Part shown: positions 16,101 to 62,282 of the stretch, piece by piece
Numbering within the stretch: position 1 is the first letter of the stretch
How the letters are laid out: each line of letters opens with the position of its first letter
Origin: Branchiostoma lanceolatum
Taxonomy: Eukaryota; Chordata; Leptocardii; Amphioxiformes; Branchiostomatidae
Length of the DNA stretch: 64,000 bases
Direction: 5' to 3'
Assembly (NCBI RefSeq): GCF_035083965.1
Contig: NC_089728.1
Span: 21,284,955 to 21,348,954 of the forward strand
Notes under the pieces: model-generated
Database searches by the model: none
What the model was told of the DNA's origin: nothing
Seen by the model: only the letters and a program-made list of their open reading frames with translations
Made by a program: the position numbers and the translations under genes

Positions 16101-19100
16101 CATACACCTAAGAAATATTAACAGACTTGGTGAGTTAGACCGCGGGGCTGACAGGCCAGCCTGCATGTAGACTGCATTCATACAACACCATGAAAGTGAC
16201 TGAACTAATCAGAAATCACACCTGGCCAGCCTGTGTAACTGGCACATATGTGATAAATTCTATGAAAAGTCTAAGCTAGGGGGATAGGCCGCGGGCCTGA
16301 ACAGAACCCCGCAGACTAAAATAAACATAGAATGGGCTTGAAGTACAAGGTAAACCAAAAATGATAAGTATGTCACCAACATGGCTCCAAACATGAGATT
16401 TGGATATGAATCTTGAACTACTATAATACTATATTAAGTAGTCTATTTTGTAGTTTAGCACTGTTTATGTACATGTAAACTGTCTGAAGCACAGTTCAAT
16501 TCAATATTCTTATTGTATGACCGTGATAGTATTTCATGGAACATACTCATAATCTGCCATAATATGCAAATATCTCTAATTTACATATATGCAGTTCAGT
16601 TGTAGGATTCCAATCTGTACTAGTACAGATTGGAATCAGGATTCCAATCTGTCCTAGGACAGATTAGAATTCCAATCTGTACTAGTACAATCTGGAACTG
16701 TACTAGGACAGATTGGAATTCCAATCTGTCCTAGGACATATTAGAATTCCAATCTGTCCTAGGACAGTTCCAGATTGTACTGGATTCCAATCTGTCCTGT
16801 GACATATATATATATTTAAAAAAATATATATATATATATAATTTAACTCTACACTCTCTGAGTAGGTTCATGATTATATGAACAAAACAATTCTCATGTG
16901 GAATATAGTAATTGAGACCAGACAGGGGAGCTGGCAAAATTTCAAAGTTTTGACTTCTTACAAATGTGAAAATGAGCTTTCAAATGTGTGTCTCCCTGCA
17001 TGTTTGGTCACACGACCATTGTGACCTGGGCTTTGGAACTACATGTACATGTACTTTCTTTCTTATTTCCGAATAAAGAATGATTTTACACTTTTCTTGA
17101 TGTGAAGTGGACTAAAGGACAATGGTGAAATTGAGTGCTTAGCTTCGGTTAAGGATGCTCTCTCAGATAGCAGGGGTTTTTCTAGAACAATTAAACAAGA
17201 GGGGGCACACACAGGCAAAGGAGCGAATTCTATGTATTTATGCAAGAATCAATCGCTGAGGGAATGCTGTATGCTGGATATAAGCTAAAATCTGAATTCG
17301 ACAAGGGGGCACTGGGCTGAAACAAGAGGGTGCAGCGCCCCTCTTTCCTGATTTAGATGAAGCCCTGAGATAGGATGTTAAGCGAGAGAGAGGAGAGCCA
17401 CATCTCAAGCATGTTAAAGAACCCACCACACTTATCAAAATGAGTAGGGTTCCATCCTGGTGTGAATGGATCAAACCTAACAGCCTTACGGCTTACACAG
17501 CTTGTACTCACTGTAGAAAACTGGTGTGTTAGGCCTAAAGCTATGTGAAACAAACAAACGAATAAGATGTCACAATACTACTCACCAGTACCAAACAGGT
17601 GTCCACTAAACAGAAGACCCCCGATCTGCCTATCCCCGCGCTACAGTGCACCACGGGGGGTCCTACGTCCGACTCCAGTGACCCCGAACTTCGGACCTCC
17701 AGCAGGAAGTGGAGAAAGGCCGCCGGGGACTCTGGGACGCCAAAGTCCGGCCACCGCGTGTAGTGAAAGTGAAATACTTTTCTGCTCTCATCGGTCTGGT
17801 AGGAACAGAAAAATGATATCATCTTTGGAACTCGGAAGGTCGCCACATAGATTAGATAATAAAGAGAGGCTAGGGCTGTCTCCAGCTATAATCTTTTCTC
17901 CATCCCACTCATTGTATGGAGTTCATGTCATCAATTTTCGTTGTTAACCCTTGTCCTGCTGAAGTTTTTTTTACGAAATCTATTTCATAAAATTGATTTC
18001 TTAATCAGGTCATTTCCCCTTGACTTTTTCTGCACTGCTGTACATGTGGCATGGTTACTTCCACATTCGGTGCGTTTCACTGCGGTGTGATGCGTTCAGC
18101 TGAAAAATACCCCCAACCCGTACATACACAGGACCCACATACAGGCTCTGTTTATATGTTTCATCAATTTCATGTCAATCATGATTTTTGGACAGAGGGG
18201 GTGAAATTTCTGTCCATCCCAACAATCAAATTTCTGTCCCAGTGGTCTTTATGTAGTCAGTAGAGATGGTCACTTGTACAGGTTTTACTGTATATCAATG
18301 GTCAGGTGGTCCTTGCGTAGAGATGGTCACTTGTACAGGTTTGACTGTATATGAATGGTCAGGTCGTCCTTAGAAATAAAGATCATCAATATAGAGGTAC
18401 AGGTTCGACTGTGAAACAAGAGTTTTTTTCTACTCCTGACCTTTAACCTCTGTAGCAGGTAGGTCCTGATGGTAAAATAAGGTCTGACGTCTTCCTCCAA
18501 CAGCGTCACCTTGTACCCCGTGTCCTCAAGGTCAACTTCGTCCGAATGTCCGTTGACCTCCCCTAGGGGCCAGTACTGAGCACATTTGATCTGAAGGAAG
18601 TCAACATCATAATGATTATAATGGCTGTACAAAGTAAATGTGAAAACGATATTGTTAAGCTCAAATGAACTCAATGAACAGATGAGCTAATCTTCCACTG
18701 GTCGTGACAGGAAGACAGACGCTATGTACAGTAGTTACTGGCGTACTGTAACAAGGAAATATCCCTAGCTCTTTAAGTACCATAAACAGTTGAGCATGGC
18801 TTCACGTCCCGTCCCAAGGACTGCCATCCTTTCCAGTAGCGTGCATGTTGGGTGAGCAACACAGCCGGGATGCGAACTCCTGACTTCTTGGTCCAGAGGC
18901 AGCATCACTAACCACTGGACTACACACACTACTTACAGGTACGTACATGACTTTTTTGTGTAAAGCGGCCATCTTCAATTAAGGTGAAGCATAATGCTTA
19001 ATTTTTCAAGTATACTGTAGTAGCAAAATGCAGCTTCACAAGATCTAGACACATGCTTAAAAAGAAACACACACACAGCCCTAAGAACTAAACAAGCTAT

Positions 19101-36885: not shown

Positions 36886-39800
36886 GTCAGTATGTTTCAT
36901 GTTGTAGTGGTATTGTTTTATATCAGGCCACATAAGTTTGACTTCAGGATGACCAAGGAGGTTACAGACAGTTCTGCTTCATACTCCAATACCACCTCCT
37001 TGGGATGACATCAGGGAAGACCTGAAATCCGATATTCATTCATACTATCAAGGTTATTGGTGCCGCACTTAGCATTTAACCTTAGTAACACTCTACTTAA
37101 TTAAACTGTACAGCACTGCTACAGGAACTTATGATACAGATTTGATACTGTAAGTTCATGTCCCCGTGGCGCAAGCGGTAACGTGTTACCCCACTGCTTT
37201 GCCATCTTGATCAAATTCCGTGGATCCTGGGGCCCGAGTTCGATCCTGGGGTCGACTCCAGCTCGGACATGTTGTATTAGGGATTGCATTCAACATTTTG
37301 GATGGTGACGAAAAGCCGGCGGCCCCGTGAATGAGGGAGCTTTCAAGGGCATAAGCCTCAAGCGTCACTCAGACCTCTGCACGTAAAAGAACCCAACACA
37401 CTTATCGAGAAGAGTACTAGTACGGATGACCCGGTGTGCTTTGCCAAAAACGCAAGTCGTGGCGAGGCTGCATTGCACTTAAAGGAGGGCCTGCATGGAG
37501 GGGTAGTGATTACGAATTACGGAAAATTTTTGCCGCCGATTACGAATTACGTTAAATTTTCAGAGCCGATTACGAATTACGTTAAATCATGAGGCTTCCC
37601 AACCAACTTAAACAGTTAACGCATGATTCAACTACAGTATCTATTTCTGCATCAAAACTGTTCATTTTTATATTTATTGTGGTGACAATGAATCTGTTGA
37701 TGACCACACTAAACCGTATAACTATAATGAGTAGCCGTGACGGCGGCAGTGAATTTCGTATGGGAAGGGACAGCAAGATATTCCGGAACGTACGTTGTCC
37801 GGGAAAATTGTAAAGAAATCTTGACCCCCTGAAACGCTATAACCTTGATTTTGAGTGCCACATTTTGCTGTTACACTATGTTTGATTACATATCTATAAG
37901 TGAAAAGAATATTCAAGAGTTTAATAGTATGGTGCGCGATGCCGCGCTGGAGCGACCCGGCGATTGCATATTGTAGGTCGATCCGGGAGAATACCCGGGA
38001 AAATGGTAAAATCTTGACCCACTCAGATACATTTTGAGGGGCAATATCTGCACTCATAGTGAAAAGTACACAAGAGTAGATGCACGGTTTGCCCTCCCGA
38101 CATATTTTCGCCGGAGGCGTACATGTAACAATCGCAAGTAGGCACGAGGGCATGCACCCGAGGAGATTTTGAAATCTTTACCCTTTGAAACGCTATTTCT
38201 TGCATTTTTACGGGCACATTAGGCTGGTAATCTAAACTATGTTTTATGGTTTCTCTTTGATTGAAAAATACACAATGATTCCAGCTTGATATTTAGGGGC
38301 GACGCCCTCAGAACGAGGCGCGACAATACTAAGTGGGTCACATGTTTCATGGGAAAATTTTGAGATCTTTACCCTCTGAAATGCTATTTCCTGCATTGTG
38401 AGGGGCAACTTTGCCGGGAGACTTTGCTGGAAATAAACCTACGTTTTTCTAGTAATTCATAGATTACGTTTTACGTTGCATAAAGGTAACTGCCTACGTT
38501 TTACGTAGAATCAAAGTGACCAATTACGCGTTACGGCCAATGTACTGATTACAAATTACGTTGATTTTGGGTGGCTGATTACGGATTACGAAGTCTAAAA
38601 CGGCCTGATTACGCCTTACGGAAAAGGGGCATACAGGCCCTCTTAAAGTACTTGAAAAAACATCATGCTTTACCTCAATCTCCATTATATCCTCTTCAAT
38701 ACTCTTGCTGGATATTCACTGTGGTGGCATGGAATGATTAGTAATACACACAATTTCTTGAAAAGGCAGTACATGTATCTCTTTGTGGGGACCGCAAGAT
38801 CATTCAATGTACATGTTGCATATCTCAACCGTAAAACCAAACCCTCTTCCCTTTATAGGACTACCGGCTGGGTTTCTATGGTTTCTGGAGCCGCTGGGGA
38901 GGAGGCGTGGCCACTATCGACCCCGCCCCTGGCCACACCCTGTGGGGCGTGGTCTGGCAGATTGGCATAGAAAACCTGGAAGCCCTCAACAAGTGACACA
39001 CTTTCTTCTCTTGTGTGATTTGAGTCAGAACACATTGCCTAGCAGTTTCAGACTTTATTTAGTACAGATTTTTAGCTTGGCTACAGGTTTTTCGTCAGGA
39101 AGGAATCTGGTGGTACAATCTCATCCACTACCAAAATGCCTGTGCAGCAGTATAATCAAATACTGGATACGAGTTCTGCTACAGTAACTACATGTACTAG
39201 CTTTTCATTCAAGCCTGTGGGCATGTGTATAGGAGAGCTTAAGTTAAGATTCCAGGTTCAATACTCACGTAAAAGAACCCAGTGCACTTATCATATAGAG
39301 TTCAAGAGTAGGAGTGACCCCGTGAGCTGTAGCAAAGCTGCAATATTTGCACTACAGACACACTTCACTCAAACCTATGAAAGGTGCCCAGTCTCTTTCG
39401 TCCTCTTTCATAAATAGCATCTGCAAAGCACCCTCCTGAGCAGGCCCGATATGGCCAGAAGCGATTTTACAGGCTTGAAATGGCAGGGCCGGTATGGGAG
39501 GTAGCATACCGAGCATATTGTGCCTGCTCGGGAGGGTGTTGCAAAGAGGACAAAAGAATCTCGGCAGCTATAATACCTTTGAATATGAGGCTAACACTGT
39601 ACCTTTTACCCGAACAAGCATCTGATGCTTCACCATGTGGACAACTGCTTTACCTTCAATTTTTACCTAAAATGTGCGAAACAAATTTATCATGTGCATG
39701 TTCCTTTTCCACATTTTCTCTGTCAGTAACACTTGGCAATTGTCCTCTATTGAATGTCTCAAGACTTTTCCTTTTCTTTTCTTACTCCAGACAAGAGGGC

Positions 39801-40070
39801 GTGAAAGGCAATGATCAAGGTGTGTACAGGCCAGTGGAGCTATCGGTGAAAACTTCAACAGGTGAAAACCTCACCTGTAGATCCTACCAGATCATAGACA
39901 CCAGTCAACCCAATCCTCCCTCCCCGCAGTACATGGAGGTTCTGCTAGGAGGCGCTAGACAACAGGGACTTCCTAAGGAGTACATCCAAGAGCTGTCCGA
40001 GATTCAGACCAATGACTACAAGGGACCTGTACAGATCATGGAGGATTTGAAAAAGAACAACAAGAGTTGA
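36751..40070 (+). CDS. GGCT: Gamma-glutamylcyclotransferase (3 coding exons)
   Basis: Cytosolic enzyme that converts gamma-glutamyl amino acids to 5-oxoproline and free amino acid in glutathione turnover. Exons: 36751-36885, 38859-38992, 39791-40070; 549 nt = 182 aa. If the in-frame ATG at 36775 is used (MAGKDTFLYF) the protein is 174 aa, and I consider that start more likely; human GGCT is 188 aa. Visible: the substrate-binding FLYFGYGSNLL at the N terminus, GGVATIDPAPGHTLWGVVWQ in exon 2, and KQEGV at the exon 2/3 junction with the catalytic Glu equivalent to human Glu98. The C-terminal SPQYMEVLLGGARQQGLP and NDYKGP match the family. An AATAAA at 40343 probably ends the transcript. Confidence 0.92.
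37158..37477 (+). mobile_element. Full-length tRNA-derived SINE
   Basis: CCCCGTGGCGCAAGCGGTAA (A box) and GCCCGAGTTCGATCCTGGGG (B box), then a body ending CACGTAAAAGAACCCAACAC and GCATTGCACT. Its A-to-B spacing is longer than in a real tRNA. Confidence 0.7.
37478..38648. mobile_element. 1.17-kb TIR element with GATTACG subterminal repeats and TTAA borders
   Basis: Left TTAAAGGAGGGCCTGCAT; right ATACAGGCCCTCTTAA, inverted. Both subterminal zones carry many GATTACGAATTACG-type repeats (three at the left, at least six at the right). The interior repeats CCCTNTGAAACGCTAT-like units three times. No transposase. Confidence 0.75.
38859..38992 (+). CDS. GGCT: GGCT exon 2
   Basis: Acceptor ctttatag, then DYRLGFYGFWSRWGGGVATI to NLEALN, and two bases of a Lys codon before donor gtgaca. 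The segment between DYRL and GGVAT is a few residues shorter than in human. Confidence 0.92.
39225..39350 (+). repeat. SINE tail in GGCT intron 2
   Basis: CACGTAAAAGAACCCAGTGC, AGAGTTCAAGAGTAGGAGTG and AGCAAAGCTGCAATATTTGC align with the 3' part of the SINE at 37158. The tRNA head is missing. Confidence 0.55.
39791..40070 (+). CDS. GGCT: GGCT exon 3
   Basis: Acceptor tactccag. The first base completes Lys, followed by QEGVKGNDQGVYRPVEL, CRSYQ and the C-terminal helix region; stop TGA at 40068-40070. The frame is open upstream to 39480, but that part is intron. Confidence 0.92.
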
Positions 40071-40342
40071 TTGGTGTGAGAATTGTACTGAAAAAAACAA
40101 TACATGTACATTGTTTAACATACATTTTACAAAATGTAATACTTTGAAATTGTCAAGGCTCAAAATCGTTTTTATTCTGTTCCCCATTATTGCACAGTGG
40201 CAATGTTTTTCTGGAAAAATGGTTTTCTGCAAATACTGTATATAGCCTGATGAATCGTAAATCATCATCATCATACATGGATTTGTAAGTCTTGAGATCG
40301 AGAATGAACTGTATTTGGTGAATTTTGGTCTGACTAGCTGCT

Positions 40343-40348
40343 AATAAA
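40343..40348 (+). terminator. GGCT: GGCT polyadenylation signal
   Basis: AATAAA about 270 nt after the stop codon, on the coding strand. Confidence 0.55.
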
Positions 40349-40349
40349 G

Positions 40350-42740
40350 AAGATTATTATTCATAACATAGCACCTGATTTTTTTTTTAATCTACAAAAA
40401 TGCAACTTGTTGCTTATACTTTTCCTGTAAATGGTAGAGTGCAGGTGGTATTTCAAGCACTGGTAGTGTATGTAGAGACAACAGTATATACTAGTACCAT
40501 ATTGCATGTTAGTGTCAGTTTGTTATAGATACATTTTTTAATTGGTTGTTATCGTACAAACATATATCTTGAAGACACAATTGTAAAATAGGTTATTGTA
40601 GTCTTGATAAATTTGGCTTGAGAATTACATTTTAGAATATGTGAATCTTCCTTGTTTTGAGATTTTGAAATTGGCAACTTCAATGAAGTCATAGTTATAG
40701 AAGGCGTGAGGAAAACCCTATCATGGAAAACGGTAACGAAGGCCGTGCCGTGAAGTTGGTTTGGGTGTAAAATTTTCATTGATCGCTGGAGGTCGCCCCT
40801 GTACGGTGATAAAACCCACCATCAAATACCAATGGAAACGTCGGAGAAATGTGAGCTTTAGGGCACGAAGAAAAGTAGCCGCAAATGTTCTCGGATATAC
40901 AATTCAGTTTCTACATCTGGTTCACTTCATTTCAAGGTCAGCTACGCGGTAGTGATCAATCATCGCCGGGGTCAAGGTCAACCCTGGGGTCAAGGGCCTT
41001 TAGTTACACGTGTTTATTCTCCTGGCAATTTTGGAGGGGACGTTTCAGTACTTAATCTTGAAAATTCTGGAAAAAATTCATTCCGTGTGGGATATCCTAG
41101 CGTCTGTTCAGCTATTTTCGGTTGCCACGAAACCTTGAAAATATTTGCTTAGTTGACGACATTCTAAACACAAATGCCCATATCGTGACATACGAATGCA
41201 TATCATGAAAGTATTGAAACAACGATCATCATTTGCAAAATCCACGAAATTTTACATCAAAATAATGGCAAGTTGATAAAAAGACCTTAACATTTTTAAT
41301 ACAGTAGTCTAGTTTATATTCTCTAAACTAAAGTATAAACCTTCACACCCGGCGAGACCTAAGGCACCCCCAAGTGATAAACTAGTGCGTAATCCGAACT
41401 TGGTGTCTATTCAACTCTAACATCTGGAATCACTCTTGAAGTTGTGAAAACACCCACTTCAAGTTGAACTGCGCAGCAGTACGTGTAAAAACAATCAGAC
41501 GGTTTCACACTCTAAGATTGTAAAGAAAGCTCACGATTCACTGACTAACCCTATTAAGAAACCAATCAAGTCGTAGATTGGCTCTATTTTGATGAGGAAT
41601 ACTGTTGCCCCGCAAACCCCATAGAGAGCCCTGACCCTTTCTTCACTGCAGACGATACGAGACTACGCGGGACCTTGGTAACTCCTTCGGGGTTTTCCTT
41701 CAAACAAACGTCGTTTGGCAGGCGGGTCAAACACGCCAGTGCTAAGATGTCAGTCTTCTTCGTCTTTAAAGGTTTGTGCCAGGCACTGCCAACTGTCAGT
41801 GCAAGGACCCGTCTTCTTTCTTGAAGATTTCTTCGGAGCTCTTGATCCCAAGGAAGGCGCCCCCATGGCAACTGTGTGTTCCACAGGTTGGTAGTACCGT
41901 CAGTTGTGTTGTGTGATTTGTCTCCGGACCTTTCACTACGTTCACGCCATATGTTTTACCTTTAACTCTGGAATGTGGCAGAGGGTGATAGATGGGAGAG
42001 CTGAGATTTCCCAGCGGTGTCAGTGTTCTCAAGCAGAAGGATTTTCTTGGAATAGAACGTTTCTTCAATCATGTGTATGCAGCTTATACATTATAAGGCG
42101 TCGCCCGTGACGTTGTAGGAGGTTGTAAAGTTGTAAACATTATTATTCTTGAGGGGCAACGTTTAAGTACGTGTGTAGTTCTATTATAAAGGAGATGTCA
42201 AAGAGTCAGTCTTTCAGGTCACTGATTGAACTCTCAGATATGTCAGAGGCCTGCAAGATTCTGCATTAGTGTTGTGGCGCCGGTTGCTCTCGCCTTCATG
42301 ATAGTTCTCAGAAACCTCAAAGGACGAAATTCGTAAAGTTTGTATTCCAACAAGGACATTATTGTTTTGTAGAATATTTCAAGATTTTCCCTGAAGGAAA
42401 TGTATATCCAACTGCAGCTACCGTATGATTACCATTACCCCACGGAGAGGAACTCAAGCTTTCTCATGCCAAGACCAACTGAGCTATCGCCTTACCTTAA
42501 TCTGTTACCAATTAAAGAACGCCCGCCCCTTGATACCATACATCCGTGTGGAGTAAGGAGAAAACAGGACCTGTTGGTCTTGGGCGTTCTGTTTGTCCGT
42601 AGCAAAAACGCATGAAAAGATTAACGTTTGCTCCAGCTGGTTTGTTTGCTGTTTGAGTGGACGCAGTTCGCAACTGCATGATGCTGCAGTGCTTGTCTTT
42701 CTCAGCCAGGGGGCGTCACCTTGGCACAGCGCATAGGGTC
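40350..42740. other. Intergenic region upstream of the TIR-NB-ARC-WD40 gene
   Basis: Short overlapping frames only. Presumably contains the promoter and any 5' UTR exon of the TIR gene, which I cannot place. Nothing repeat-like stood out. Confidence 0.5.
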
Positions 42741-42765
42741 ATGGTGCCAGCTGCACACGTGGAAG
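42741..42765 (+). CDS. TIR-NB-ARC-WD40 exon 1 (tentative start exon)
   Basis: ATG followed by VPAAHVE and one base, then donor gtaaac. The phase-1 end exactly fits the acceptor of the TIR exon and yields Ala at the junction. The TIR exon has no in-frame ATG before the domain, so some upstream start exon is required. A different, more distant start exon remains possible. Confidence 0.5.
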
Positions 42766-45700
42766 GTAAACTTGGATGTCAGGATTCAATTCGTCAAATG
42801 TGAGGGTGTTAATGGGGGTAACAGAAGTAACAGAAGGGCGGTTTTCTCTTTTATCCTTCGCTGACAAACGCCATGGCCTAAATAATAAAAAATTATGGTA
42901 TCCCCAGTGAAGACAGTGTGTTGCTAACCAACGTATCATATATTAATAATGTCATTAATATGAAAAAGTGTGCCCTGAGCACATTCCAGTAATCAATTAT
43001 CTTCTGTCATCCCATCCCTTGGTATCGAAGGTCTGACAACAACAACAAAAATAAACTGTTGAAAGATCTTGAAATGTCCGTTGTAATGCATGGTAAGCAT
43101 CGAAGCTGGGTGCAACGATAAACCAAAGTACGAAATAAAATGTTGAACTGGTTCTGTATTTTTGTTTATCTGTTACCTTCAATAAAATGTTTATTGTTTG
43201 TTTATTTCAGCATCAGGCGATGAGGTCCCGGAGACCACCTGTTTCACCCTCGTGTCCTACAGCGACAACGACAAGGATTGGCTACTCAAGCATCTCGTTC
43301 CCAACGTAGAGAGAAACGACGATGTCGTCCGACTTTTCCTTAGAGACAGGGATTTTGAGCCAGGCGTGTCCAAACTCGACGCTTATTCCGAGATAGCCAG
43401 AAACTGTGACAAGATTATCATCTTGTTGTCCCGGAGTTATGTAAAAAATGGCGCGTGTATGTGGGAGCTTGACCAAGCGCTGTCGTCAGGGCACAGACTC
43501 GTTCCCATCGTCCTGAGCGACTGTGACGTCCCGCAGACTCTGAGGCCGTTCAACCCCATGGTCTACCGCGCATGCGCAGGGGATGGTGACTTTTGGGAGC
43601 GACTTCGTGACGCGCTCACCGAAAATAGGAAAGGTTAGTGTCAATCATGCAATGTTTATTATAGAATTTCATAAACATCTACTAATATGTTGCAATTCAA
43701 TATGCGAATTATGCTTGTAACCTGATTTGAATGATCACTCAATTTTGACGTCAATAGGATATTGAAAGATTAGAACAGCTTTTCATTGCTACTACAGTCA
43801 ATACTGCCCAAGAAGACCACTCAGGGGACCGATCAAATCTGATCTATGTGGACAGATGGTCACTATATTGTGTCAATGGGAAAATTACCCAAGGGACTAC
43901 CAAAAAGTGGTCATATAGACCAGGTGGTCCATCTATAAATGTATATGTATAGTTGGTCAATTGTACAGGTTTGACTGAACATGTAACGTTATCACGAAAG
44001 TTGCGGCTTTGGTGTGTTTTGCATGTTTTTACTGAAGCTATGTGGTGTGATGAAATATCTAAGGCGACCCACAAAGCATCCGTTGTGGTCTGCCCAAATT
44101 GATGAAAAATGTTTGAAACAAGTCTATTCTATTTTCATTTCCAGACTCGTCCATTGCAAGAGGCCGCACCAAAACACTCCCCAAAGTCCCGAGCGTTCTG
44201 ATGCCCAGGACCGCTGACGTACGGGCTGTGTTGGGGATGATGCGGGAGTCCCAAGCTCTTCTCCCGCCAACACTGTCGGCTGGTGGCCGGGGAGGACAGC
44301 ACGTTGTGGGGATCTGGGGGATGGGTGGCAGCGGTAAGACCGTACTGGCGGTCATGGTGGCTCAGGCACTGGCGAAAGACGACCGGAGAGAGGTGAAAAT
44401 AGACATTTTCCCTGCTGCCTTAAGCCCCCCCCCCCCCTCACTGAACTCGAATTGACAAAGCACTCAACGAATTTCATCGACAACAAACGAATCTTTTTGA
44501 GCTTTGTGGGTTTTTTTTTTTTGTGTGTCTTTTTTGGTCATACTTGTACGTTTTGGATGATACTACATGTAGTATTCCCATTATTCAAGTCAAGGGTAAC
44601 ACAAATTCAGTTTAGGACGCAGCGACGCCGCCAGCGTGCCGCGGGTCGAGTGAGAGGGGGGCTTAACTCTGTAACCAATAGGGAATTGGGTGCCAAACGG
44701 CTACTTCAATTTTGCTAAAGGTTAAAGGGCACACACTTGTAAGTTCTTTGGTACCTGGTACTTTCATTTGCGGTACATCAAGTACGTATTATGACTGTTG
44801 TTTGAAATCGATTCTCAAGTTCAATATAGTTGTTAAAGGGGGAAAAGAATTAAGTACATTCTTTTCAGATATTTCAGCGTCTTCAATAAACTCCCGAGCC
44901 TGATTGTCATCCTAGTCAGTAAGGTAGAACCTGGAACTAACTAGGTTTTAGACTATAACTGCTCCATTGACTTTGACTGTATTTGAATTGCAACAACACA
45001 GTACAAACTCCATATCCTTTGATAGATATTGTAGGAGGAAAGACGCGTTCCTTTCAGAAATAACTGAAATGTTGTATTATTTCTGTAGGTGTTTTGGATA
45101 ACGGCAGGAAGACAGAATCGTGTGCTGGAACACCTGGCGGATTTGTTTGCCGACATGACCAGCAGTCACCTGCCATTTACAGAACTTAGCGAAGCCATCA
45201 ACGTGCTACGTCACCAAACACGTGACAAGGACTACGTCATCGTCTTGGATGACGTCACGAATGTCGAACATGCTAGGGACGTCATCGACGCGATGACGGG
45301 GAGGTGCCAGGTGCTTGTCACGTCACATGACATTCAGGTGTTCCGCGCGTTGCAGGTGCCCCACGTGCACAACCTGAAGACGTTTGATAAGCGTGAGTCC
45401 GAAGCGCTGCTTCTCAAGAAAATCGGACTGAGCTACGCTTTGGATCCGTTCGACGAAAGGAGGGTGATGGTTGACGTCATCCTGCAGGCGTGCGGCGGGC
45501 TCCCCCTGGCGATTTCCGTTGTAGCTGCCACCGTCGGAAATCCGGAAGATGTCAACGCCTTGAGAAGCATAGCTAGAGCGCTGAAGAGCCACAGTCCCTC
45601 GACAAAGGAAGGCACGGGAAACAGACAAGTTAGCTTATCTTTTGACGCTAGCCTCAAAGCATTGACACCGACGTTGCAGCGGCGTTTCCTTCTTTGTGGG

Positions 45701-48700
45701 GTCTTTCCCGACAACGTTGATATCCCCATGGACGTATTGACTTTGTTATGGCGCACAGAGGACCCGAATCTTTCAGAAGTTGAATCTCAGAAGAATGCTG
45801 AAAGTCTTCTCCTAAGATCGTTGTTACTGGAAGGCGGGAAACCGTCTACATATCTTCTGCACGAGATTGTGCGAGACTTTGCGAGATCTAAGCTCGGCGA
45901 CGAAGAGCCTTCGGTGCACAGACATCTGATTGAGTCGTACAGAGCAAAGTTGGGAAGTGGTTTAGAAGACAGCTGGAACGATGGTTACTGCTTCCAGCAC
46001 ATCTCGTGTCACTTCAGACGGGCCGGAATGACGGACAGACTGATGAAGATTCTTGTGAGCTACTCCTGGCTGAAAGCCAAACTCAAAACCACGGATTTCT
46101 TTGCCCTTCTTTCTGAATTCCAGGACCTTGACCTTGACCTACCAGAATCCGTTGTCCAAGTGCGCGAGGCGCTTTCGTTGTCTGGGCGCGTCCTGTGTTC
46201 GGACAAGAGTCAACTCGGTGCACAACTTCTTGGCAGGTTGTCAAGGTCTACCAACAAAGACATAATTCAGCTTTGTAAAGACGTGGACGAAAGATCTCAG
46301 GTTGCCTTGCATCCTTGTCTACAGTGCTTAACAGCTCCCGGTGGACCCAACATCAGAACCTACAGCAGAAACCGGCATGCAGTTCTCTGTTTTGCCGTGA
46401 CGAATGCGCCGGGGTCTAAGAGGGTCTTCATGGGGTCTGACGACTACACGATCAGAGTGTGGGACTTGAAGTCTTGCAGGGATGTCAGCGTCCTACACGG
46501 TCACCATGGCGACGTATCCGCTTTAGCGATCAGGAAGGACGACACGATCCTAGCGTCTGGATCGCGGGATTCCACGGTGAAGATCTGGGACGTGGATCGA
46601 CTGATCTTGCTCTGCACGCTTGAAGGGCACAAGAGCAGTGTCAACGGAGTTGTTTTTCTGGAAGATGGCGCCACTCTGATATCTGTATCGAGCGATCAAA
46701 CCGTCAAAGTCTGGAAGCTAGACGCCTTACTGGAATCTCAGGCATCGAATGTGCTGCTTTCGGGCAGTCCTTTGACACCGATAACATCCATAATCTGGCC
46801 AACAACCAAGGACTTTGAGATCGAAACTATACCAAGAACCCAGCTCCTGTCGACGTCACCGACAGAAAGTGATGACGCCAGAGACCTACCAGGCCCCAAC
46901 ACGTGGCTGTGCGTGTCGACTTTAGTCGGACACACTGGACAGATTAACGCCGTGTGCGCCTTCCATCATAAGTGCATGGTGGCCACGTGTTCGGACGATC
47001 ACACCGTCAGACTGTGGGACTTGGACAGCCTGCAGTCACACTGTCTGGAGGGACACGAGAGGGCGGTGTGCGACGTTGCCATAACAACGGACGACAGGTT
47101 CCTGGTTTCCGCGTCTGGTGACAGAAAGGTGGGCGTGTGGGACGTGGAGAAGCGCGACTTGCTCCACAAGTTGGTCGGGCACACGGACGTTGTCGCCGCC
47201 ATTGCCATCACCCCGGACGACGCCACACTTGTGTCAGGCGGTGGGATGGACGATACCACTATTCGAATATGGAAACTCAGGGAGGGGGATCAGGTTTGTA
47301 CGTTCAGGGGTCATGGAGGCGGAATAAAGGCATTAACAGTCGTAGACACGGAGAATGGAAGAATACTCCTGTCCGGGTCTGTGGATGCTTCTTGTAGGAT
47401 CTGGAAACTTGAGGAAGATCCGCAAGACGTTGAGCCCCTCCCGGGACACGATAGTCCGGTCTACACTGTTGCCGTGTCAAGAGTGGGAAGGTTGGCGGTG
47501 TCGGGCTCCCGCTCTGGCGAACTCAAGCTGTGGAATCTCCACACCGGAACGATAGAGGCTGTCGTCAGAAACGCTCATTCGAGATCGATTCGCGCCTTAG
47601 CTGTTTCAGAGGATGAAAACATGGTGGTGTCAGGATCTAAGGACAGAAAGGTTAAGATATGGGACGTGAGTCAAGACGCAGAGACCTCTAGCGACATATT
47701 TAGGTCGGTGCAGCCGTCCTACCTGTTCGAGAGGGCGGTCCTCCGTGGTCATGTAGGAGCGGTTCAATGTGTCGCCATCTCCCAGGATTCCAAACTGGTT
47801 GTTTCCGGAGGTTGGGACAACCTTGTTTTCCTGTGGAACGCCAAGAAGGGCAGGTGCGTCCGAAAGCTCTTCCATGTCAGTTACGGCATCATGTCTGTAG
47901 TCTTCTGTAAACAGTCTATCGTGGCATGTGCCAGAGACAACGTCGTCTGCAGGTGGGTCGGTCTGACTGCAGACGATCAGACCAAGCGGACTGTAGTGCG
48001 CGGTCCGAGCGCTAGATGGCTCTCCTACCCGGCGGTGATGCTTCCCAACGAGGCAAAGATTGTGAGCGGCTGTCCCGAAGATGAACGCTACCGCCAGTGG
48101 GACAAAATGGGGCGACAGTCCTGCGGGAACTGCGGCCACCCGAGCGGCTCAGTCCTCACAGCCCTCGCAGTGAGCTGCGATGGAGGCACGCTAGTTTCAG
48201 CCTCTACCACCGGCACCGTAACAGCGCTCAATCTCACACGCAGCAATCACCATGTTACACATTATGTGACCCAAAAAGAAGTGGTGGCACGTTCCGAGCT
48301 GAAGAAACAGACCAGCGCGATCACCATCTTAGAAACAGGCACGGAAGGACACGCGGTTTTCTTGACAGGCGACGTGCAAGGAGCCGTAAAGATGTGGCAG
48401 ACCCACAAGGGAGCAGATGTCGTCCGCTATGTGAAGGACAGGTTTGTGGTACTCGGAGCGGCTCTGGGACAGATCACGTGTTTCTGTAACCTGTCCAGGC
48501 ACCTGGCTGTCTCCGGAAGCGGCGGCGGCACGCTGGCGGTCTGGGACGTTCGCGAGCGGAGACGACGCGACTGCTGGGAGGCGCACGACGCTGTGGTCAC
48601 CGACGTCGTCACGACGGACGGAAGCGGACGTCAGACGATCCTCAGCGTCCCGAACACACGGCTCGTTCTCAGCGCGTCCCTGGATAGAACCATCAAACTG

Positions 48701-49423
48701 TGGTTTGTCTCAGCGTCGTCCTACCAGCCGCTGCATCTCATGTTCCTGCCACGCGATTGTCCGCCCGCCCTCAGGCTAGCCGCCGCTCCGAACGGCTGCC
48801 ACTTCGTCACGGGCTCGGTGGACAACAAACTTCGGGCTTACGACGCCAACACGTTCGAGCTCGTCAAGGAGTACCCGTCTGACTACTACGGCGTCAACTG
48901 CGTTGGCTTTACAGCAGACGGACGGGAAATAATGTGCAGCTACAGCGGCAGCTTTCTCGGTGTCTGGGATTTCAACACGGGCGAGTGTGTGAGCGCAAAC
49001 CGGGACAACACGGAGAGACGCTCAGACACATGGTGTCATTTTTCTGCAGTCGTCCCAACTCCCTCTCAAATAGGGCCTGTAGTTGTCACAGGAGATACAC
49101 AGAACAAGTTAACGGCTTGGGATTACGTCACGGGTGACGTCAAGCATTGCTTACAAGTCCCCAACCGGAAGTTACGTCGTTGTTCACAGGAAGTGACGTG
49201 TGTGGCGGTGACGTCAGACGGCCGGAGAATCGTGTCAGGTTCTGCAGACAAGACGTTGAGGGTGTGGTCCATCGTTCCCTCAGGGGAGAACAGCTTACTC
49301 TGTCAATTCACGTTTGAGCATGCGCCAAGAGCGGCGGCCATCACGGACACAGGACAGATCTGTGTGGGACTGAGTAACGGCCAAGTCTGTTTCCTTAATC
49401 TCAAAGAACCTGTCACGGTGTAG
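42741..49423 (+). CDS. TIR-NB-ARC-WD40 protein, apoptosome-like immune/death receptor (4 coding exons)
   Basis: Proposed exons 42741-42765, 43211-43633, 44145-44392, 45089-49423; 5031 nt, about 1676 aa, all GT-AG with matching phases. Domains: TIR (about 18-145; CFTLVSYS, box 2 RDRDFEPG, box 3 FW); NB-ARC (Walker A GMGGSGKT 208-215, Walker B VIVLDDV about 282-288, CQVLVTSHD, GGLPLA about 368-373); winged helix ending LHEIVRDFA (about 487), the MHD position; a helical arm to about 650; then about 21 WD repeats to the C terminus. The NB-ARC, arm and WD parts resemble APAF1 in order and motifs (CQVLVTS versus CQILLTT), but there is no CARD. Likely a cytosolic ATP/ADP-switched sensor that oligomerises through NB-ARC and signals through TIR; the ligand is unknown. 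Exons 2-4 are firm; exon 1 is tentative. The 3' AATAAA is at 49704. Confidence 0.9.
43211..43633 (+). CDS. TIR-domain exon
   Basis: 423 nt holding the whole TIR domain on one exon. TTCFTLVSYSDNDKD begins it, RDRDFEPG is a TLR-like box 2, and GDFWERLRDAL carries box 3. Acceptor tatttcag, donor gttagt. Introns on both sides are phase 1, so the exon is a symmetrical 1-1 module. At the alpha-C position where NAD-cleaving TIRs have Glu, I see Asp (KLDAYSEIARNC), as in TLRs. Confidence 0.93.
43795..43980. mobile_element. TACAGTCAAACCTG-family TIR element in TIR-gene intron 2
   Basis: CTACAGTCAATACTGCCCAA to TTGTACAGGTTTGACTGAAC; GACCACTCAGGGGACCGATC nearly matches 1889-2197. It sits 160 bp downstream of the TIR exon donor. 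Confidence 0.75.
44145..44392 (+). CDS. NB-ARC P-loop exon
   Basis: 248 nt, coding a linker and HVVGIWGMGGSGKTVLAVMV, the Walker A motif of an NB-ARC ATPase. Acceptor tttccag, donor gtgaaa, ending phase 0 at DDRRE. The frame stays open about 60 nt into the intron without coding meaning. Confidence 0.92.
44446..44620 (+). repeat. Dispersed repeat copy 3 in TIR-gene intron 3
   Basis: GCACTCAACGAATTTCATCG and GGTCATACTTGTACGTTTTG match 33990-34240. Confidence 0.6.
45089..49423 (+). CDS. NB-ARC remainder, helical arm and about 21 WD repeats in one 4.3-kb exon
   Basis: 4335 nt uninterrupted, phase 0, starting VFWITAGRQNRVLEHL directly after acceptor ctgtag. Holds Walker B, GLPLA, winged helix and arm, then WD repeats with GH...WD signatures such as IRVWDLKS, VKIWDVDR, VRLWDLDS, VGVWDVEK, LKLWNLHT, VKIWDVSQ and LRVWSIVP. 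The first seven to ten repeats are canonical; later ones are degenerate. APAF1 in vertebrates is cut into many exons here, so the long exon suggests intron loss. GC content is clearly higher than in the introns. Confidence 0.96.
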   Translation: MFWITAGRQNRVLEHLADLFADMTSSHLPFTELSEAINVLRHQTRDKDYVIVLDDVTNVEHARDVIDAMTGRCQVLVTSHDIQVFRALQVPHVHNLKTFDKRESEALLLKKIGLSYALDPFDERRVMVDVILQACGGLPLAISVVAATVGNPEDVNALRSIARALKSHSPSTKEGTGNRQVSLSFDASLKALTPTLQRRFLLCGVFPDNVDIPMDVLTLLWRTEDPNLSEVESQKNAESLLLRSLLLEGGKPSTYLLHEIVRDFARSKLGDEEPSVHRHLIESYRAKLGSGLEDSWNDGYCFQHISCHFRRAGMTDRLMKILVSYSWLKAKLKTTDFFALLSEFQDLDLDLPESVVQVREALSLSGRVLCSDKSQLGAQLLGRLSRSTNKDIIQLCKDVDERSQVALHPCLQCLTAPGGPNIRTYSRNRHAVLCFAVTNAPGSKRVFMGSDDYTIRVWDLKSCRDVSVLHGHHGDVSALAIRKDDTILASGSRDSTVKIWDVDRLILLCTLEGHKSSVNGVVFLEDGATLISVSSDQTVKVWKLDALLESQASNVLLSGSPLTPITSIIWPTTKDFEIETIPRTQLLSTSPTESDDARDLPGPNTWLCVSTLVGHTGQINAVCAFHHKCMVATCSDDHTVRLWDLDSLQSHCLEGHERAVCDVAITTDDRFLVSASGDRKVGVWDVEKRDLLHKLVGHTDVVAAIAITPDDATLVSGGGMDDTTIRIWKLREGDQVCTFRGHGGGIKALTVVDTENGRILLSGSVDASCRIWKLEEDPQDVEPLPGHDSPVYTVAVSRVGRLAVSGSRSGELKLWNLHTGTIEAVVRNAHSRSIRALAVSEDENMVVSGSKDRKVKIWDVSQDAETSSDIFRSVQPSYLFERAVLRGHVGAVQCVAISQDSKLVVSGGWDNLVFLWNAKKGRCVRKLFHVSYGIMSVVFCKQSIVACARDNVVCRWVGLTADDQTKRTVVRGPSARWLSYPAVMLPNEAKIVSGCPEDERYRQWDKMGRQSCGNCGHPSGSVLTALAVSCDGGTLVSASTTGTVTALNLTRSNHHVTHYVTQKEVVARSELKKQTSAITILETGTEGHAVFLTGDVQGAVKMWQTHKGADVVRYVKDRFVVLGAALGQITCFCNLSRHLAVSGSGGGTLAVWDVRERRRRDCWEAHDAVVTDVVTTDGSGRQTILSVPNTRLVLSASLDRTIKLWFVSASSYQPLHLMFLPRDCPPALRLAAAPNGCHFVTGSVDNKLRAYDANTFELVKEYPSDYYGVNCVGFTADGREIMCSYSGSFLGVWDFNTGECVSANRDNTERRSDTWCHFSAVVPTPSQIGPVVVTGDTQNKLTAWDYVTGDVKHCLQVPNRKLRRCSQEVTCVAVTSDGRRIVSGSADKTLRVWSIVPSGENSLLCQFTFEHAPRAAAITDTGQICVGLSNGQVCFLNLKEPVTV

Positions 49424-49703: not shown

Positions 49704-49709
49704 AATAAA
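49704..49709 (+). terminator. Polyadenylation signal of the TIR-NB-ARC-WD40 gene
   Basis: AATAAA about 280 nt after the stop codon in AT-rich 3' sequence. Confidence 0.55.
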
Positions 49710-50205: not shown

Positions 50206-52525
50206 TGTACACTACACCCGTGTACCCCCTTACACCCCGCACCTTCCGCCCTCCCCCAGCCCCTCTGTGCCCCCTTACACCCCGCGCCCTCCTCCCTCCC
50301 CCATTCCCCCTGTGCCCTCTCAAACACCCCGCACCCTCCTCCCTCCACCATTCCCCCTGTGACCCCCAAACACCCCGCACCCTCCCCCATTCCCCCTGTG
50401 CCGTCCCAACCACCCCGCACCCTCCTCCCTCCACCATTCCCCCTGTGCCCCCCCCCCCAAACACCCCGCACCCTCCCCCATTCCCCCTGTGCCCCCCCAA
50501 ACACCCCGCACCCTCCTCCCTCCACCATTCCCCCTGTGCCCTCCCAAACACCCCGCACCCTCCTCCCTCCACCATTCCCCCTGTGCCCCCCCAAACACCC
50601 CGCACCCTCCTCCCTCCACCATTCCCCCTGTGCCCCCCCAAACACCCCGCACCCTCCTCCCTCCATGATTCCCCCTGTGCCCCCCCCCCAACACCCCGCA
50701 CCCTCCTCCCTCCACCATTCCCCCTGTGCCCCCCCCCCCAAACACCCGCACCCTCCTCCCTCCACCATTCCCCCTGTGCCCCCCAAACACCCCGCACCCT
50801 CCCCCATTCCCCCTGTGCCCTCCCAAACACCCCGCACCCTCCTCCCTCCACCATTCCCCCTGTGCCCCCCCCCCCAAACACCCGCACCCTCCTCCCTCCA
50901 CCATTCCCCCTGTGCCCCCCAAACACCCCGCACCCTCCCCCATTCCCCCTGTGCCCTCCCAAACACCCCGCACCCTCCTCCCTCCACCATTCCCCCTGTG
51001 CCCCCCCCAAACACCCCGCACCCTCCTCCCTCCACCATTCCCCCTGTGCCCCCCCCCCAAACACCCCGCACCCTCCTCCCTCCACCATTCCCCCTGTGCC
51101 CTCCCAAACACCCCGCACCCTCCTCCCTCCACCATTCCCCCTGTTCCCCCCCCCCCAAACACCCCGCACCCTCCTCCCTCCACCATTCCCCCTGTGCCCT
51201 CCCAAACACCCCGCACCCTCCTCCCTCCACCATTCCCCCTGTGCCCCCCCAAACACCCCGCACCCTCCTCCCTCCCCCATTCCCCCTGTGCCCTCCCAAA
51301 CACCCCGCACCCTCCTCCCTCCACCATTCCCCCTGTGCCCTCCCAAACACCCCGCACCCTCCTCCCTCCACCATTCCCCCTGTGCCCTCCCAAACACCCC
51401 GCACCCTCCTCCCTCCCCCATTCCCCCTGTGCCCTCCCAAACACCCCGCACCCTCCTCTCTCCACCATTCCCCCTGTGCCCCCCCAAACACCCCGCACCC
51501 TCCTACCTCCACCATTCCCCCTGTGCCCCCCCCCAAACACCCCGCACCCTCCTCCCTCCATCATTCCCCCTGTGCCCTCCCAAACACCCTCCTCCCTCCA
51601 CCATTCCCCCTGTGCCCTCCCAAACACCCCGCACCCTCCTCCCTCCATCATTCCCCCTGTGCCCTCCCAAACACCCCGCACCCTCCTCCCTCCTCCATTC
51701 CCCCTGTGCCCCCACCCCAAACACCCGCACCCTCCTCCCTCCTCCATTCCCCCTGTGCCCTCCCAAACACCCCGCACCCTCCCCCATTCCCCCTGTGTCC
51801 CTCCCACACACCCCGCACCCTCCTCCCTCCCCATTCTCCCTTACACCCCCTCCCCCCTTTCACCCCGCATCCTCCGCCCTCCCCCGTTCCCCCTGTACCC
51901 CCTCATACCCCGCACCCTCCGCCCTCCCCCGTTCCCTCTGTACCACCTTACACCCCGCATCCTCCGCGTTCCCCCTGTACCCCGCACCCTTCGCCCTTCC
52001 CCGTTCCACCAGTACCCCCCTTACACCCCGCACCCTCCGCCCTTCCCCTTTTCCCCTGTACCCCCCTTACACCCCGCACCCATCTCCCTCCACAAGCCCC
52101 CCCCCCGTGCCCCCTTACACCCCGCACTCTCCACAATTCCCCCTGTGCCCCCGTACACCCCCATCCTCCTCCCTCCCCCGGCTCCCCTGTATCCCACTTA
52201 CACCCCGCACCCTTCGCCTCCCCCCCCCCGCTGTTACAGCCCGCACCCTCCTCCCTTCTCCATTCCCCCTCCGCCCCATCTAACACCCAGCACCAACCGC
52301 CCTCCCCCATTTCCCCTGTGCCCACCCCTTACATCTCGTACCCTCCACCCTCCCCCAGCCCCTCTGTGCCCCCTGACACCCCACCCCCTCGTCCCTCCCC
52401 ATCCCCCCTGTGCCCCACCCCGCACCCTCCACCAACCCCTTTCCCCCTGTGCCCCCTTACACCCCGCACCCTCCCCAATTCCCCTGTGCCCCCGTACACC
52501 CCGAATCCTCCTCCCTCCCTTATTT
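50206..52525. repeat. C-rich minisatellite, unit about 47 bp
   Basis: Unit reads ACACCCCGCACCCTCCTCCC, then TCCACCATTCCCCCTGTGCC and CTCCCAAA. About 33 regular units lie in 50290-51830; more divergent ones continue to 52525. Unit length varies through the poly-C run. The complement is strongly G-rich with repeated G runs (G-quadruplex potential). Period not divisible by three and no stops: hence long frames on both strands that are not genes. Confidence 0.95.
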
Positions 52526-52529
52526 CCCG

Positions 52530-54375
52530 AGTCAGTGCAGACTTATATACTCTGCATGGTCAGTGCAGACTTATCTACTCTGCAGGGTCAGTGCAGACTT
52601 ATCTACTCTGCAGGGTCAGTGCAGACTTATCTACTCTGCAGGGTCAGTGCAGACTTATCTACTCTGCAGGGTCAGTGCAGACTTATCTACTCTGCATGGT
52701 CAGTGCAGACTTATCTACTCTGCAGGGTTAGTGCAGACTTATCTACTCTGCATGGTCAGTGCAGACTTATCTACTCTGCATGGTCAGAGCAGACTTATCT
52801 ACTCTGCATGGTCAGTGCAGACTTATCTACTCTGCAGGGTCAGTGCAGACTTATCTACTCTGCAGGGTCAGTGCAGACTTGTCTATTCTGTAGGGTCAGT
52901 GCAGACTTACCTACTCTGCAGGGTCAGTGCAGACTTATCTACTCTGCATGGTCAGTGCAGACTTATCTACTCTGCAGGGTCAGTGCCGACTTATCTACTC
53001 TGCAGGGTCAGTGCAGACTTGTCTATTCTGCAGGGTCAGTGCAGACTTACCTACTCTGCATGGTCAGTGCAGACTTATCTACTCTGCAGGGTCAGTGCAG
53101 ACTTATCTACTCTGCAGGGTCAGTGCAGACTTATCTACTCTGCATGGTCAGAGCAGACTTATCTACTCTGCAGGGTCAGTGCAGACTTATCTACTCTGCA
53201 GGGTCAGTGCAGACTTAACTACTCTGCATGGTCAGTGCAGACTTGTCTACTCTGCAGGGTCAGTGCAGACGTATCTACTCTGCAGGGTCATTGCAGACTT
53301 GTCTACTCTGCAGGGTCAGAGCAGACTTATCTACTCTGCAGGGTCAGTGCAGACTTATCCTCTGCAGGGTCAGTGCAGACTTATCTACTCTGCAGGGTCA
53401 GTGCAGACTTGTCTACTCTGCAGGGTCAGTGCAGACTTATCTACTCTGCAGGGTCAGTGCAGACTTATCTACTCTGCATGGTCAGTGCAGACTTATCTAC
53501 TCTGCATGGTCAGTGCAGACTTATCTACTCTGCAGAGTCAGTGCAGACTTGTCTATTCTGCAGGGTCAGTGCAGACTTACCTACTCTGCAGGGTCAGTGC
53601 AGACTTACCTACTCTGCAGGGTCAGTGCAGACTTATCTACTCTGCAGGGTCAGTGCAGACTTATCTACTCTGCATGGTCAGTGCAGACTTATCTACTCTG
53701 CAGGGTCAGTGCAGACTTATCTACTCTGCAGGGACAGTGCAGACTTATCTACTCTGCATGGTCAGTGCAGACTTATCTACTCTGCAGGGTCAGTGCAGAC
53801 TTATCTACTCTGCAGGGTCAGTGCAGACTTATCTACTCTGCAGGGTCAGTGCAGACTTATCTACTCTGCAGGGTCAGTGCAGACTTATCTACTCTGCAGG
53901 GTCAGTGCAGACTTATCTACTCTGCAGGGTCAGAGCAGACTTATCTCCTCTGCAGGGTCAGTGCAGACTTATCTACTCTGCAGGGTCAGTGCAGACTTAT
54001 CTACTCTGCAGGGTCAGTGCAGACTTATCTACTCTGTAGGGTCAGTGCAGACTTAACTACTCTGCAGGGTCAGTGCAGACTTATCTACGCTGCAGGGTCA
54101 GTGCAGACTTATCTACTCTGCAGGGTCAGAGCAGACTTATCTCCTCTGCAGGGTCAGAGCAGACTTATCTACTCTGCAGGGTCAGTGAAAACTTATCTAC
54201 TCTTCAGGGTCAGTGCAGACTTATCTACTCTGCAGGGTCAGTGCAGACTTATCTACTCTTCAGGGTCAGTGCAGACTTATCTACTCTGCAGGGTCAGTGC
54301 AGACTTATCTATTCTGCAGGGTCAGTGCAGACTTATCTACTCTGTATGGTCAGTGCAGACTTACTTCCATTCTCT
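52530..54375. repeat. 28-bp minisatellite, about 66 copies
   Basis: Unit GTCAGTGCAGACTTATCTAC followed by TCTGCAGG (or CATG). Very homogeneous, with scattered single-base variants and rare indels (for example near 53359). 28 bp shifts frame every copy, so three units make a 28-residue peptide period in all plus-strand frames. Confidence 0.97.
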
Positions 54376-54395
54376 GCATTATCAGTGCAGACTTA

Positions 54396-54591
54396 TGCTC
54401 CGGTCCGATTTCCAATCTGGGGCCCGGTCGGGTCGTTTGCGAAAACGAAAAATAAATGAAAAATGTCTAAAAATAAAATACGCAATAAATGATTTCGAGT
54501 AATTTGTGTACGTTTTGTTGTCTTTTATATAACATTTTTTGTTCCTACAAGATGCCCGGCCGGGCCCCGGATTGGAAATGGGACCGAGGCA
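54396..54591. mobile_element. 196-bp TIR element with TTA target duplication
   Basis: Ends TGCTCCGGTCCGATTTCCAA and TTGGAAATGGGACCGAGGCA; the inverted repeat extends about 32 bp through GGGGCCCGG. TTA flanks both sides (54393-54395, 54592-54594), as for PIF/Harbinger elements. It marks the end of the 28-bp array. Confidence 0.8.
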
Positions 54592-60667: not shown

Positions 60668-62282
60668 CTAGACTGGCCGTCATTTGCTTTAAGAGCAAAT
60701 TCAGGATGTTTCGCCCATACTCCTCATGCAAGAAGTGGGCTGTCCCAAAATAACTCCTGGGCAAATCCAAGTTTCTGCATAATTTATGGAAATGAGGTCC
60801 TCATGAGCATAAGTTATGTCCAGGTGCTTTCACCTTTCCTACATGTACCTACATGTTCAAGATGACATCCGCAGCTTTTACAGTAAGGGGAATACAATAT
60901 CATGCATGAATTATGCAAATGAGGTCCTCATTAGCATATGTCATGGCCAGGCGTGTGCACCTTTCCTAAAGGTACCTACATCTCAAATATGACATGTGCA
61001 GCTTTTACGGTAAGGGAAATACAAGTTTCTGCATAAATTATGCAAATGAGGTCCTCATTAGCTTAATTTTTGGCCAGGTGCATTCACCTTTCCTAATGGT
61101 ACCTACATCTTAAAGATGACATGCGCAACTGTCACGGTAAGGGAAATACAAGTTTATGCATGAATTATGCAAATGAGGTCCTCATTAGCATAATTCATGG
61201 CCAGGTGTGATCACCTTTGCTAACGGTACGTACATCTCAAATCTGACATCTGCAGCTTTTCCGGTAAGGGAATTACAAGTTTACGCAGAAATCATGCAAA
61301 TGAGGTCCTTATTAGCATAATTTATGGCCAGGTGTGTTCGCCTTTCCTAAAGGTACCTACATCTCAAAAATGACATCCGCAGCTTTTACGGTAAGGCACA
61401 TACAACTTTTTGCATCGATTATGCAAATTAGGTCCTCATTAGCATAATTTATGGCCAGGTGTGTTCGCCTTTCCTAAAGGTACCTACATCTCAAAGATGA
61501 CATCCGCAGCTTTTACGGTAAGAGACATACAACTTTATGCATCGATTATGCAAATTAGGTCCTCATTAGCATAATTTATGGCCAGGTGGGTTCGCCTTTC
61601 CTAAAGGTACCTACATCTCAAAGATGACATCCGCAGCTTTTACGGTAAGGGACATACAACTTTATGCATACATTATGCAAATTAGGTCCTCATTAGCATA
61701 ATTAATTGTCAGGTGTATTCACCTTTCCTATAGGTACCTACATCTGAAATATAACATCCGTACCATGTAACGTACATATAACTTTCTGTAATACCATTAG
61801 TAGAGGTACCCCCTCACATCTACTTGGTTTTAACTCCCAGACAGGGGAAGTGTAGGAGGGCTTATGTTACAAGATGACCTAGTTGTGAGAAAATAACCAA
61901 AAATTCCATCAAAAAATTGCAAAATCAATCATTTTGGAGTAGTGTATACCAAAAAAAATAATGGGGTCCTTTGGGTAAATATCCAATGCACAACTAAACC
62001 AAATTTCAGGTCCTTAGGTTTCAACACCACGGCACTGGAGGCCATAATGTGCGACTTTTGTCGGAAAATGACCAAAAAACCTCGATAAAATCATTTTAAA
62101 AACTTATATCAAAAAAATTTCAAAAGGGTCTAGGGGTATACACGTACTCTACCTCCATACCAAATTTCAGCTAATTTGGTCGACGGACGACCGAGAAGAA
62201 GCGATTTGAAGATTTGACAGGAGAAGAAGAAGGAGAAGAAGAAGAAACCTGACAAAAACAATATGTTTCGTTGGCGAAACAT
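60668..62282 (-). mobile_element. 1.6-kb insertion between monomers B and C, Helitron/Helentron-like candidate
   Basis: Interrupts the A-rich monomer junction (AACTAAA...AAAACCCTGAG). Read on the minus strand it ends in hairpin ATTTGCT-cttaa-AGCAAAT, 10 nt, then CTAG followed by host T. This is the layout of a Helitron 3' end. The other end has hairpin ATGTTTCG-ttgg-CGAAACAT, and I see no TC start, so Helentron-like or another class is possible. No Rep/helicase coding: non-autonomous. Confidence 0.5.
60750..61790. repeat. 127-bp tandem repeat, eight copies, inside the insertion
   Basis: GAGGTCCTCATTAGCATAA recurs at 60794, 60921, 61048, 61175, 61302, 61429, 61556 and 61683, exactly every 127 bp. 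Each unit also has GGTACCTACATCTCAAA and GCAGCTTTTACGGTAAG. Confidence 0.95.

Follow-up and report, generated by a model that had tools for sequence, protein, structure and literature searches.

APAF1 (3sfz, 1z6t), the protein of the caspase-9 apoptosome, which binds cytochrome c and forms a heptamer, carries an N-terminal CARD followed by NB-ARC, a winged-helix region, a helical arm and a WD40 part of about 640 residues; CED-4, placed in the same family, is without WD40 propellers. Plant TIR-NLRs such as ROQ1 (7jlv) have a TIR domain and then NB-ARC, with an LRR in their layout. By published description, the red alga Chondrus crispus has a TIR-NBARC-WD40 architecture, nominally the one considered here, with an NB-ARC that is sister to plant NB-ARCs (PMC9806590). 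Fungal HNWD proteins (HET-NACHT-WD40) resemble it in joining a TIR-related effector, a STAND ATPase and a WD40 sensor, but have NACHT and HET domains in place of NB-ARC and TIR (PMC12881547). In amphioxus itself, TIR can replace the CARD of APAF1 homologues, one protein being given as TIR-NB-ARC (PMC2246300), and TIR-[NB-ARC]-WD40 proteins have been read as a direct link between innate immunity and apoptosis (PMC2575513). Both the architecture and the immunity-apoptosis idea are thus already in print for amphioxus, from 2007 and 2008, and the novelty implied by a first-pass annotation of the present DNA falls away. Section 9 of PMC2575513 names cDNAs for other hybrids and none for TIR-[NB-ARC]-WD40. 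Among the papers listed by the literature searches, which covered few subscription journals, we noticed none that tests such a protein functionally.

How does the present locus compare? The window (the whole 64-kb stretch of Branchiostoma lanceolatum DNA that was analysed) contains four exons on the + strand (42741-42765, 43211-43633, 44145-44392 and 45089-49423) that join in phase into a CDS of 5031 nt, encoding 1676 amino acids with no internal stops. All three introns are of the GT..AG type, with agreeing phases of 1, 1 and 0. The predicted protein has TIR, then NB-ARC, the APAF1 helical arm and WD40, so that it shares three domains and their order with the amphioxus TIR-[NB-ARC]-WD40 proteins, as these are described in print (PMC2575513, PMC2246300). 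The features are, in order along the DNA:

42741..42765, + strand: candidate for the first exon of the CDS, with an ATG, 8 codons and a single further base before the donor GTAAAC; weak, placed by in-phase joining
43211..43633, + strand: exon 2, which encodes the TIR domain and has phase 1 on either side (Pfam, phases, frame openness, codon score)
43465..43467, + strand: Glu94, in the same column as the Glu of TLR2 WCKYEL (alignment to 1fyw)
44145..44392, + strand: exon 3, encoding a linker and the N-terminal portion of NB-ARC (in-phase joining; Pfam NB-ARC)
44318..44341, + strand: Walker A, GMGGSGKT, aligned to APAF1 GMAGCGKS
45089..49423, + strand: exon 4, remaining NB-ARC, winged-helix region, APAF1 helical arm, WD40 array and stop codon (1444-codon open frame; Pfam)
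45233..45256, + strand: Walker B, YVIVLDDV, aligned to APAF1 SLLILDDV
45320..45331, + strand: TSHD, which we take to be the sensor-1 motif (VTSHD against LTTRD in APAF1 alignment rows u54842 and u20425; Arg to His)
45860..45865, + strand: His-Glu of a presumed MHD-like motif (LHE aligned to APAF1 LHD; Asp to Glu)
45911..46207, + strand: APAF1 helical (arm) domain, APAF1_C, PF17908 (E = 9.8e-11, 42.2 bits, cut-off 22.8)
46343..49270, + strand: WD40 array of 12 clear and 4 weak repeats (Pfam; self-built repeat HMM)
49704..49709, + strand: AATAAA polyadenylation-type signal, about 280 bases 3' of the stop

Judged from genomic DNA, the four-exon model looks real: it is well-formed, intact and animal-type. 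One of the three forward frames of the TIR exon is open, the other two carrying 5 and 9 stops, and the GC content is 0.54–0.63 in exons 2–4 versus 0.36–0.40 in the introns. A codon model was trained on the WD40 part of the predicted gene, with introns 2 and 3 in its background. It gives the predicted frame the top score in the TIR exon, in the portion of exon 4 that encodes NB-ARC, and in exon 3, where the lead is small (0.418, with 0.362 for the next best frame). All six frames of introns 2 and 3 score negatively, which is no independent test, since these introns belonged to the model background. The assignment of exon 1 is insecure: its support is weak because 24 ATG-to-phase-1-donor choices were counted within 40201-43200, and further in-frame ATGs lie 5' of its start, at 42678 and 42681. 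The first-pass annotation had described TIR, NB-ARC with Walker A and B, arm and WD40 in one phase-consistent gene, and the 1676-residue frame, the Pfam matches and the APAF1 alignment bear this out.

Could the TIR exon normally be used apart from the APAF1-like body? It might belong to another transcript, or intron 2 might be retained, in which case the frame would end one codon past the donor (RKG-stop, 43634-43638) and leave a TIR-only protein. The uncertain exon 1, and a gene model drawn from DNA alone, would leave room for such an arrangement. However, the TIR exon lies on the same strand as the body, intron 2 is 511 bases long with GT/AG ends and matching phase, and the same architecture has been predicted in amphioxus (PMC2575513, PMC2246300), so that a TIR normally separate from the body appears very unlikely.

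A search of the window with the predicted protein, made with no high-identity filter, gave three alignments, each of which falls on exons of the gene itself; no second copy of the gene was found within the 64 kb. A neighbouring + strand ORF (39414-40067) matches AIG2_2 (PF13772, 1.4e-16) and is presumably gamma-glutamylcyclotransferase-like. On the - strand, 17544-18686 holds a protein-tyrosine phosphatase exon (PF00102, 1.4e-21 at 17544-17885, with a weak match of 0.038 at 18330-18686). Two large minisatellites follow closely on the 3' side of the gene, at 50232-51941 (a 47-base C-rich unit, 36.8 copies) and at 52531-54396 (a 28-base unit, 66.6 copies). A 127-base tandem repeat of 7.9 copies occupies 60763-61760, with an A+T-rich near-palindrome visible by eye in its unit. 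Rfam (at the gathering threshold) and a tRNA scan gave no matches.

The ATPase and arm are nearest to APAF1. Pfam places NB-ARC (PF00931) across exons 3-4 at 5.3e-21, above its curated cut-off, and the best PDB match of the ATPase-arm part is APAF1 (1.2e-15, query residues 54-452), with an alignment that continues through the arm, where SWLKAK stands for the APAF1 DWIKAK. The next matches are NB-ARC proteins, mostly plant NLRs, at 3.7e-15 to 9e-15 (9h2l at 3.7e-15, an RPW8-domain protein at 3.9e-15, NRC2a at 8.2e-15), and their alignments end earlier, at 312-392. With E-values this nearly equal, score barely separates APAF1 from plant NLRs, and it is the arm domain that decides. A profile scan of the kind suggested in the first-pass annotation, run on pieces of the protein, put TIR_2, TIR, NB-ARC, APAF1_C and WD40 above their cut-offs and the winged helix below: APAF-1-like_WHD (PF21296) reached only 0.026 and 15.1 bits against a cut-off of 27. 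The winged helix claimed in that annotation is therefore weak by Pfam, while the APAF1 alignment runs through the region. At the sensor-1 position, a third APAF1 row (u54870) reads TTSD. Given the His at sensor-1 and the Glu in the MHD-like motif, APAF1-style nucleotide switching may be altered. The NB-ARC/arm part gave 21 pattern matches in prokaryote genomes, none of them confirmed, a result that rules out close relatives alone. In PADLOC, a weak P-loop match to PifA (0.0031) and a match of the WD40 region to HEAT-ARM_XIII (5.2e-24) were both uninformative.

The WD40 array completes the set of APAF1/CED-4 family features found here, namely NB-ARC with Walker A and B, the helical arm and C-terminal WD40. 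Pfam WD40 (PF00400) matches exon 4 at 7.8e-95 in 12 stretches, above the curated cut-off, and a repeat HMM seeded with 12 repeats chosen by hand from the same protein gave 16 matches, namely its own 12 seeds and four weak ones. Generic WD40 proteins top the sequence search (best 60 of 340 matches inspected; APAF1 is among the 340), so this part does not discriminate between relatives, and its fold model (pLDDT 34.2) is unusable.

The TIR exon has other kin. Pfam reports TIR_2 at 4.7e-13 and TIR at 1.9e-11, both above curated cut-offs, and the sequence holds LVSYSDNDKDW, RDFEPG and FW, which we take to be Box-1-, Box-2- and Box-3-like motifs, respectively. The best PDB matches are Toll-receptor-related 2, TLR15/2, TLR10, TLR2, TLR6, TLR1, TLR3 and MyD88, at 4.2e-9 to about 2e-5. 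Antibody light chains enter the phmmer list from E = 0.013 on, so matches weaker than this carry little weight. Among the 47 PDB chains matched up to E = 10, SARM1 and ROQ1 are absent (ROQ1 was present in the sequence library searched), and the single plant-type entry is 7xoz, at E = 1.5. The fold model of the TIR is of low confidence (pLDDT 54.6); Foldseek puts TLR2 and TLR10 nearest to it, with eight matches at E <= 0.001 (three TLR2 chains, two TLR10, two of a Bacillus cereus TIR and one MyD88) and a SARM1 chain from the Foldseek copy of the PDB at 5e-3. Phage records searched with the TIR gave no match at 1e-5. By closest relatives and Box motifs, then, the predicted domain is a TIR of TLR/MyD88 type. 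The first-pass annotation had proposed MyD88/SARM-like partners; the sequence favours the MyD88-like half of that proposal over the SARM-like half.

Might the TIR be an enzyme? Glu94 falls in the column that we take to be the position of the TIR NADase catalytic glutamate. A conserved glutamate is needed for TIR NADase activity (PMC9806590), ROQ1 aligns to the NB-ARC at about 1e-9, and a bacterial TIR is among the close Foldseek matches to the low-confidence model. Ring assembly could then switch on the cleavage of NAD+, the mode of action of plant TIR resistosomes and of SARM1, with direct killing or signalling as the result. However, TLR2 bears a Glu in the same column, so Glu94 is not diagnostic of NADase activity, and the sequence matches are to TLRs and MyD88, with SARM1 missing from the 47 chains matched and the lone plant-type TIR at 1.5. 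A NADase TIR is therefore unlikely. A more particular form, in which a TLR-type TIR exon was captured independently, its catalytic glutamate kept or regained, and an animal apoptosome-type ring carries NADase TIRs, is less probable still; if true, a single protein would combine a sensor of APAF1 type with an enzymatic output like that of plant resistosomes. As predicted from the DNA, the sensor-1 His, the LHE and the Glu kept at the NADase position are details that we did not see in the literature consulted.

Was a CARD retained elsewhere? In Pfam, neither the TIR piece (2 families matched) nor the ATPase-arm piece (19 matched) showed a CARD or death-fold family, and none stands among the best 25 of 59 families for exon 4 as a whole. 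The ten + strand ORFs of at least 60 codons that lie in intron 2 or from 40051 up to the TIR exon likewise matched no family (10 of 10), though shorter exons could escape such a search. Thus, the N-terminal CARD of APAF1 proper was not found in the regions scanned. The arrangement first annotated, an APAF1-like body whose CARD is replaced by a TIR, is supported by this result, by the best PDB match, which is to APAF1 through the arm, and by APAF1_C above its cut-off. Since its ATPase-arm part is nearest to APAF1 and its TIR exon nearest to Toll/TLR and MyD88, the predicted protein belongs to the APAF1 family, has a TIR of TLR/MyD88 type and shows no CARD in the regions scanned. It differs from APAF1 in the TIR, the sensor-1 His, the LHE motif and a longer WD40 part (about 1000 residues), and from plant TIR-NLRs in the APAF1-type arm, the WD40 and a TIR that is not plant-type by sequence. 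A caspase apoptosome might nevertheless still be fed, with the TIR forming the bridge to a death-fold adaptor. The body is of APAF1 type, an immunity-apoptosis link has been proposed (PMC2575513), and lancelet MyD88 has death and TIR domains (PMC6526094), but no CARD was found in the TIR piece, the ATPase-arm piece or the neighbouring ORFs, and we consider this route improbable.

By a modest margin, the analysis favours a member of the APAF1 family that has a TIR of TLR/MyD88 type at the CARD's place and works by a WD40-gated ring that clusters TIRs. While gene structure, domain order and the kinship of the parts are read in the DNA, we infer the gating, the ring, its partners and its output. 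By analogy to APAF1, the WD40 propellers would hold NB-ARC closed with nucleotide bound, and a ligand on the propellers would open it. Nucleotide exchange would then drive the formation of a ring through NB-ARC. The ring would gather the TIR domains at its hub, where they would seed a joint TIR assembly with adaptors of MyD88 type. The output would be of NF-kB type, in place of caspase-9 recruitment. Lancelet, fly and mammalian APAF1-like molecules have been reported to bind DNA (PMC11747288), and DNA is a possible ligand class for the predicted protein.

How did the TIR come to lie in front of this body? That the gene as a whole is of bacterial or plant-type origin is not favoured, since it has introns, an APAF1 arm and a TIR of TLR type. 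Exon shuffling in lancelets favours 1-1 phase exons with promiscuous domains (PMC4284660), and the TIR exon, with phase 1 at both ends, is of that class. From this phase and this bias, we infer that the TIR exon was captured in front of an APAF1-like body. The gene would then be a clean example of effector swapping, in which the STAND ATPase body is conserved, switch and sensor are APAF1-like, and a symmetric-phase exon changes the output. It would also allow a test of whether an APAF1-type assembly can drive TIR signalling.
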